This document shows, piece after piece, positions 8,362 through 10,617 of a stretch of DNA of 64,000 bases; position 1 is the first letter of the stretch; every line of letters begins with the position of its first letter. Source of the stretch: Bacteroidota bacterium (GTDB lineage: Bacteria; Bacteroidota; Bacteroidia; Flavobacteriales; Flavobacteriaceae). Made by a program: the position numbers and the translations under genes. The notes under the pieces are model-generated. The model worked only from the letters and a program-made list of their open reading frames with translations, had not been told where the DNA came from and did no database searches. The DNA lies in NCBI GenBank assembly GCA_018335575.1, contig JAGXRT010000032.1:1-64000 (forward strand), in the 5' to 3' direction.

Positions 8362-9882
8362 ATGAAAAATATAGTTAAAAAAATAGGAATTTTATTAATG
8401 GTAGTGTCATTAGCTTCATGTAGTGACGATTACCTGGATACACTGCCTACAGATGCTGTAGGTGCAGATGATGCCATTGCAACCACTAAAAATGCCTGGG
8501 CATCCTTAAACGGAATTCACCGTTTGTTGTACTCTCAGCATAGAAGTACACAAGCCGAAGGTGGATTGGGAGGTATCTTTTTACTTTCGGATCATTTAGG
8601 AGAGGATATTGCTTATCCTAGTACTTCTAACAACACCTCATGGTTTGGAGGGACTCATAAATGGGTTGATCATAGAAATGAAAACAGTTCTATGGCTTCG
8701 TATCCGTATTATTTTTTCTATAGAATTATAAATGATGCTAATTTAATTATCAATAAGATTGACAATGCATCTGGAGATCCTACAGAAAAAAATAGAATTA
8801 AAGGTCAAGCTCTGGCTTATAGAGGTTGGGCACACTTTAACCTTGTACAATTTTACGGAAAACGTTATGTTGCAGGAACTACAAACAATCAACTAGGAGT
8901 TCCTATAATGTTGGCTTCTTCTGAAGAAGGAATGGCCCGCAATACCGTTGAAGAAGTGTATACCCAAATCAACAAAGATTTAAACGATGCGGCTACTTTA
9001 TTAACAGGGTACAACCGTGCCAATAAATCACACCTTAATTTGAATGTGGTGAATGGTTTAAGAGCGCGTGTTGCCTTAACACAAGGTAAGTGGGTAGATG
9101 CAGCTACGCATGCTGCAAGTGCAAGAACAGGCACTGGAATTGCTTTAATGTCTACTACCCAGTTTTTACAAGGATTTAATGATATTAGTAACCCAGAGTG
9201 GATATGGGGAAGCAATGTGCTTTCAGATCAAACCATGTTCTTTTATTCGTTCCATGCCTATATTTCAAGAAACTTTAGTTCTTCACACATTAGAACGCAT
9301 CCGAAGTCAGTATATTCCGATTTGTATACGAAGTTTCCTTCAACCGATGTAAGAAGAACTGTAGTAGCAACTACCAACTCTACTGCGGATAATTACCCAT
9401 CATATATGTCATTTGCTAGCGGTGTAACCTATAACCGTTTTGCTGCAGCGAGTAACAAATTCTGGGTTAAAGATCCTTCTAGCTCTGTAGCTGATATCGT
9501 TAATATGAGAGCGGCTGAGATGTTTTTAATAGAAGCAGAAGCAAGAGCCCGTAATGGTGAAGATGTGTTAGCTCAAAACGCCTTACACAGTTTAAATTTG
9601 ATGAGAAGAACGGATGTTCCTGTTAAATCAGTAAACACTGGTCAAGCCTTAATTGATGAAATTATGTTGCACAGACGTATGGAGTTATGGGGAGAAGGGT
9701 TTAGATACTTCGATTTAAAACGTACCAATGCTCCATTGAAACGAGATCATACCGGTACAAACCACAACAATACGCAAGTTGGCGGTATATTTAATGTACC
9801 TGCAGGAGATATAACTTGGGAGTTTATGATTCCACGTGCAGAGTTAAATGCCAACCCTAAAATGGTACAAAACCCTAGCTAA
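8362..9882 (+). CDS. RagB/SusD-family nutrient uptake outer membrane lipoprotein
   Basis: 506 aa; lipobox LASCSD; C-terminal ...RRMELWGEGFRYFDLKR typical of RagB/SusD. Confidence 0.95.
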   Translation: MKNIVKKIGILLMVVSLASCSDDYLDTLPTDAVGADDAIATTKNAWASLNGIHRLLYSQHRSTQAEGGLGGIFLLSDHLGEDIAYPSTSNNTSWFGGTHKWVDHRNENSSMASYPYYFFYRIINDANLIINKIDNASGDPTEKNRIKGQALAYRGWAHFNLVQFYGKRYVAGTTNNQLGVPIMLASSEEGMARNTVEEVYTQINKDLNDAATLLTGYNRANKSHLNLNVVNGLRARVALTQGKWVDAATHAASARTGTGIALMSTTQFLQGFNDISNPEWIWGSNVLSDQTMFFYSFHAYISRNFSSSHIRTHPKSVYSDLYTKFPSTDVRRTVVATTNSTADNYPSYMSFASGVTYNRFAAASNKFWVKDPSSSVADIVNMRAAEMFLIEAEARARNGEDVLAQNALHSLNLMRRTDVPVKSVNTGQALIDEIMLHRRMELWGEGFRYFDLKRTNAPLKRDHTGTNHNNTQVGGIFNVPAGDITWEFMIPRAELNANPKMVQNPS

Positions 9883-9902: not shown

Positions 9903-9929
9903 AAAAGCGTTCTTCGGAACGCTTTTTTT
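9903..9929 (+). terminator. Rho-independent terminator with UUCG tetraloop
   Basis: AAAAGCGTTC-TTCG-GAACGCTTTTTTT, same stem/loop as 4823..4850. Confidence 0.9.
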
Positions 9930-10065
9930 ATATCCTAAATTTAGATTTATGTAGGAATGTCTGATTATAAAAATCTTTTTTGGTTTTGTTGGCGCTGTCT
10001 TCAGCAGGATTGAGGTAGCTGTTGTGGTTAAAATAGGAAAGCGAACATGAAGTTTTATAAAAAAG

Positions 10066-10129
10066 TTGTACAATAGTTATATATAAGTTGTACAAAAAAA
10101 GTAATAAAGTTGTACAACTATTTGTACAT
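10066..10129. repeat. Phased palindromic repeat array TTGTACAA (3 perfect + 1 near-perfect)
   Basis: Copies at 10066, 10088, 10110 (exact TTGTACAA, each preceded by AG; 22-bp period) and 10122 (TTGTACAT); upstream of HU-like gene. Confidence 0.85.
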
Positions 10130-10218: not shown

Positions 10219-10617
10219 ATGTCTATACGTTACCGCATTACACAACGCAAGAACACCATTCAGCAATCATCGGAGGTGCTGCACATCATGCAGGCAGTTA
10301 CCACCGGTACCGTAGATTTGGAAACCATCAGTTACGAAATTAGTCAGGAATCTACCCTGAGTAGGGCTGATATTTATGCCGTTTTAATAGCTTTAGGTGG
10401 GAAGCTACAGCAACATCTGGCCGATGGCAAGATGGTAGATCTGGGCGATTTAGGAAAGTATCGGATAGGTTTTAAGGGTGTGGCCGAAAAAGACCGCAGC
10501 CAGTTATCGGTAAAAAGAATTAAACGGTTTTATCTTAACTACCAACCCTCATTGTGCCTTAAACACTGGCTGAAGAGCGGTGTTAACGTGTATAAAGAGG
10601 GGAGTAGGAGCCAATAA
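10219..10617 (+). CDS. HU-like (HU/IHF superfamily) DNA-binding protein
   Basis: MSIRYRITQRKNTIQQ...; typical Bacteroidota HU-like fold pattern (DLGDLGKYRIGFKG); ORF track starts at upstream TTG 10210, ATG at 10219 preferred. Confidence 0.8.
   Translation: MSIRYRITQRKNTIQQSSEVLHIMQAVTTGTVDLETISYEISQESTLSRADIYAVLIALGGKLQQHLADGKMVDLGDLGKYRIGFKGVAEKDRSQLSVKRIKRFYLNYQPSLCLKHWLKSGVNVYKEGSRSQ

Follow-up and report, generated by a model that had tools for sequence, protein, structure and literature searches.

The window, by which we mean the whole analysed stretch of 64,000 nucleotides, contains an array of three copies of the palindrome TTGTACAA on the + strand, at 10066..10073, 10088..10095 and 10110..10117. 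The first-pass annotation of this DNA had described these copies as spaced by 22 bp, and their period is indeed exactly 22 bp; the sequence AGTTGTACAA starts two bases ahead of each TTGTACAA, at 10064, 10086 and 10108. The array is intergenic, between a susD-like gene that ends at 9882 and a gene of the HU-HIG family (10219..10617, + strand, stop codon included) that encodes a protein of 132 aa. Copy 3 lies 101 bp from the ATG start codon of this gene at 10219, and the whole array about 100-150 bp upstream of it. A perfect hairpin followed by a T run (9904-9929) comes after the susD-like gene and is likely a terminator separating that gene from the array region. A fourth sequence on the + strand, TTGTACAT (10122..10129), starts 12 bp on from the start of copy 3. 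It had also been counted as a member of the array, but it is out of the 22-bp register and no counterpart is conserved in the orthologues, so we left it out as probably foreign to the array.

The expected number of equally spaced triples in 64 kb, allowing any lag from 14 to 40, is about 1e-7, which bears out the earlier claim that the arrangement is not due to chance. The motif on its own is unremarkable, since TTGTACAA occurs 7 times in the window against 2.7 expected from shuffles; we rejected it as a genome-wide motif because, taken alone, it is near background. The rest of the assembly, which comprises 2.2 Mb and is 88.9% complete, has no further pair of TTGTACAA separated by a gap of 10-18 bp, although it does contain lone AGTTGTACAA sites. 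No known RNA matched the region upstream of the window gene above the gathering score, and its best leader hairpin is no more stable than those of shuffled sequences (z 0.06). Two orthologues have a strong hairpin between array and ATG (L057:3935-3972, z -4.5; L056:3937-3970, z -2.7), a feature for which the window gives no support.

The window protein belongs to the family PF18291 (HU-HIG; E 2e-25, 89.7 bits for a cut-off of 26.2), and it is a near miss for TIGR01201 (HU_rel), under which we did not file it because its 66.1 bits fall below the cut-off of 68.6. Both families are defined on protein sequence, and the descriptions retrieved in our literature search make no mention of an array. 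The AF2 model (pLDDT 92) predicts the fold of HU/IHF (DNABII) proteins, namely two helices, a beta-sheet with beta-ribbon arms and a C-terminal helix, with an extra N-terminal beta-hairpin on the HU core. When compared using Foldseek, this model matched HU, IHF and Hbb chains with a probability of 1.00 (TM by target about 0.65-0.9), the nearest solved structure being 4FMR (Bacteroides vulgatus, putative DNA-binding protein), ahead of HU, IHF and Hbb. HU-HIG proteins thus appear to have their fold in common with the DNABII proteins, including the site-specific IHF, Hbb and phage TF1, and are presumed to bind DNA as dimers through their beta-arms, whereas the extra N-terminal hairpin is a feature of HU-HIG.

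The 22-bp phase across the HU-HIG family

We scanned regions upstream of HU-HIG genes blindly, accepting every palindrome and all lags between 14 and 40. Genes were selected on protein similarity, irrespective of their arrays. The scan settings became stricter in the course of the analysis, each being used on the complete gene set, and P-values were derived from first-order Markov shuffles. In the first set of upstream regions, ten beat all shuffles and all ten did so at lag 22, among them that of the window genome's own HU-HIG paralogue, which has three copies of AGTATACT. When 118 HU-HIG genes were scanned, the 19 best were likewise all at lag 22, with palindromes that differ from one gene to another (e.g., ATACGTAT, CTANNTAG, ACGTACGT, and ATGTACAT). 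The phase is also apparent in the base autocorrelation of 60 cluster representatives, with z = 8.4, 4.9 and 3.9 at lags of 22, 44 and 66, respectively, compared with z = -1.6 at lag 22 in control flanks. Our genome sample comes mainly from one order; members from other families of Bacteroidia reach z = 9.4 at lag 22 (n = 18).

Within 344 kb around 136 Bacteroidia HU-HIG genes, we found 56 matches at lag 22 and 16 at lag 21, and at most 5 at each other lag from 13 to 40, while 276 ordinary gene flanks contained no lag-22 match beyond the arrays already known. The 461 kb of the window's own genome that we scanned in stretches contained only two lag-22 arrays, both flanking HU-HIG paralogues, and the ordinary HU gene within these 461 kb (contig C2) is devoid of one. 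The control flanks and the own-genome scan argue against a generic A-tract or 11-bp promoter periodicity. The array, its phase, its linkage with HU-HIG genes and the private character of its sequence (see below) are established. In several Bacteroidales loci where the HU type is accompanied by DUF4248 and glucosaminidase/amidase genes, a 22-bp array is found farther away, about 0.5-0.65 kb upstream (L213, about 1836-1945; L219, about 1902-2011; L192, at a distance of about 530 bp). In L213, an annotated Parabacteroides record, the array is separated from the HU gene by a DUF6722 gene. At L195:15443-15560, consecutive repeats of about 20 bp (AAATGGTACCAAATGTCCTA) are located some 3 kb away from the third HU-HIG gene of the genome.

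The window array recurs next to the Mesonia and Haloflavibacter putidus orthologues. Among 400 genomes of the family, two Mesonia genomes are exceptional in having ten TTGTACAA pairs apiece, always at 22 bp and forming four arrays per genome, the other pairs retrieved in this family-wide search being mostly isolated singles outside Mesonia. In both genomes, one of the arrays precedes the HU-HIG orthologue by about 120 bp. The remaining three are intergenic and adjoin no HU gene, which shows that linkage between array and gene is not strict; they are near genes that, from reading their translations, we take to be aroA/queA, a sigma-factor gene and a KDO8P synthase gene. These orphan arrays (L033, L034, and L051, with G300 counterparts L036, L053, and L054) have flanking motifs in common and occupy identical sites in the two species, in one case between convergent genes. 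Six of the 16 Mesonia-group genomes encode the orthologue, five of them with perfect arrays and the sixth with a degenerate one in the same register (TTGTACAA, ATGTACAA, and TTCTACAA at 22-bp steps), and none of the ten without the orthologue has the perfect pattern. The orthologue of Polaribacter filamentus, which is more closely related to the window protein, has three copies of TACTAGTA at exactly 22 bp in place of TTGTACAA, a pattern found nowhere else in its genome. Conservation of the spacing beside orthologues had been proposed beforehand as a check: the 22-bp geometry is kept in Mesonia, Haloflavibacter and P. filamentus, but the letters of TTGTACAA are not what is conserved. Neither the orthologue neighbourhoods nor the immediate neighbours revealed a partner gene shared between genera.

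Private palindromes and their candidate reader

The two HU-HIG paralogues of the window genome are accompanied by unrelated palindromes, TTGTACAA and AGTATACT, in the same 22-bp phase, and the same holds for the paralogues L176 and L181 of genome G835. Repeat units are very similar (0.83-1.0) where the proteins are at least 84% identical, whereas most pairs at about 70% protein identity score only about 0.5-0.6, which is no better than random. Two genomes of the same genus (G208 and G381), whose proteins share 84% identity, have their arrays at identical positions but made of ATACGTAT in one and CTANNTAG in the other. The palindromes diverge together with the neighbouring protein. The economical reading is that this protein is the one that reads the array.

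Palindromes of 8-10 bp suit many dimeric regulators, so an unlinked factor, such as an XRE, MerR or LexA-like repressor, could in principle bind the array and control the HU-HIG gene. A shared regulator of this kind would need to read unrelated sites, since the paralogue palindromes in the window genome and in G835 differ at the same phase, and it would also have to accommodate the confinement of 22-bp arrays in 461 kb to HU-HIG genes. We regard this explanation as very improbable. The first-pass annotation had named both the HU-like protein itself and an unlinked factor as potential readers; the differing paralogue palindromes and their divergence in step with the protein favour HU-HIG as the candidate. 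It counts against site reading by HU-HIG that ordinary HU, the standard example of a nucleoid protein with little sequence preference, binds DNA with little sequence specificity. The data nevertheless suggest that each HU-HIG protein may read its own address, a property for which HU proteins are not known. To our knowledge, no linked array of private 22-bp-phased palindromes has been described for HU or IHF. A search of the literature retrieved no earlier description of HU-HIG-linked arrays, which is weak evidence for novelty because most subscription papers were outside its scope. In our alignment A2, the two orthologues with TACTAGTA-type arrays (L055 and L083) differ from those with TTGTACAA-type arrays by a one-residue insertion (N) at column 101, where the second beta-arm strand begins.

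Position of the arrays and possible role

Nearly all matches at lags 21 and 22 fall within -375 to -69 or 0 to +158 relative to the HU-HIG gene. Simple negative autoregulation, with the array as nothing more than an operator of the HU-HIG promoter, agrees with the position of the window array, about 100-150 bp before the ATG, and with that of the 34 upstream matches, most of which end 70-270 bp ahead of the start codon. However, another 38 matches are downstream, 0 to 158 bp past the stop codon, and several of these arrays are found between convergent genes (e.g., HU-HIG and a gene resembling a dicarboxylate symporter), where no promoter is expected; the same applies to one of the Mesonia orphan arrays. 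With about half of the arrays downstream and several between convergent genes, pure autoregulation is too narrow an explanation, and an unlikely one. The proposal of a cooperative operator or nucleoprotein assembly site that had been made for the window array is supported in part, but probably not as a pure promoter operator.

A second alternative is that array and gene constitute one selfish or mobile cassette, in which the arrays would act as recognition ends or as repeats of the REP type. Gene neighbourhoods vary between genera, the distribution is patchy (as in the 6 of 16 Mesonia-group genomes mentioned above), and the dispersed Mesonia copies have similar flanks, all in agreement with mobility. 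By contrast, no transposase or recombinase is conserved nearby, the array is usually one-sided, with a side that is inherited within clades (it changes 7 times on the tree versus 22 times in shuffles), and the Mesonia orphan arrays occupy identical sites in two species, which makes a mobile cassette improbable, even more so than simple autoregulation. REP/RAYT systems are alike in having lineage-specific palindromes tied to one gene and, as in Mesonia, some dispersed copies. They differ in that HU-HIG is not a Y1 transposase, no linked gene of this type being conserved nearby, and in that HU-HIG arrays are fixed at 22 bp with few dispersed copies. We also rejected a phage or plasmid origin, for which we found only two weak phage matches and 14 plasmid records, nearly all from Bacteroidales.

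The explanation that we consider probable is that the array serves as the cognate, private and helically phased site of the adjacent HU-HIG dimer. A dimer would bind each dyad-symmetric site and, as 22 bp correspond to two turns of about 11 bp, the sites would all point to the same side of the double helix, which would allow neighbouring dimers to assemble cooperatively and build a short nucleoprotein filament. Palindromes are specific to the HU-HIG lineage, and paralogues in one cell thus do not share sites. For upstream arrays, including that of the window gene, occupancy probably also controls transcription of the gene itself. The basic role is more likely that of a fixed nucleoprotein or architectural site than of a promoter operator alone, because many relatives carry the array downstream and some of them between convergent genes; the Mesonia orphan arrays also favour such an additional architectural role. 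It is possible, though doubtful, that HU-HIG proteins and their private arrays represent chromosomal self-addressing modules across the class, with centromere-, anchor- or boundary-like functions. Filament formation by each protein would then be restricted to its own 22-bp-phased array, whether this is upstream or downstream of the gene or, in some species, elsewhere on the chromosome, and the co-diversification of proteins with their sites would let several modules coexist in one cell.

This layout resembles that of plasmid centromeres (ParB-parS, ParR-parC, and StbA) and replication iterons, where the gene for a DNA-binding protein is likewise flanked, on its upstream or downstream side, by an array of phased sites private to that protein. 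The HU-HIG module differs in being chromosomal, in its predicted HU fold and in the absence of a conserved partition ATPase or Rep gene. We detected neither a conserved linked partition NTPase (as in ParABS or ParMRC) nor a Rep initiator in the orthologue neighbourhoods or among recurrent immediate neighbours, and for that reason did not file it with these systems. If confirmed, this little-studied HU branch, many of whose genes carry invariantly phased but sequence-private sites, would represent a novel type of protein-DNA address system. Such a system would provide a natural series for studying how DNA specificity evolves on the HU fold as well as an immediate supply of orthogonal protein-site pairs, and an unexplained family (HU-HIG, 4FMR) would gain a candidate ligand that is directly testable.

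Among 84 HU-HIG genes with both flanks available, a strict cut-off placed the array upstream only in 21, downstream only in 25, on both sides in 4 and on neither side in 34. The last group, which speaks against the array being the site of the neighbouring protein, includes L056 and L063 even though an array is visible in them, whereas in others (e.g., L084 of G229 and L007 of G030) a nearby array seems truly absent. Many HU-HIG genes whose upstream region lacks an array (L069, L070, L075, L088, L090, L092, L102, and others) have in common an upstream element similar to TTGTTGAWAACT, recognized by eye only. The immediate neighbours of the HU-HIG genes at L004, L005, L008, L070, and L124 constitute one similarity group, and those at L004 and L005 look like glycosyltransferases of the sort found at the edges of surface-polysaccharide clusters.
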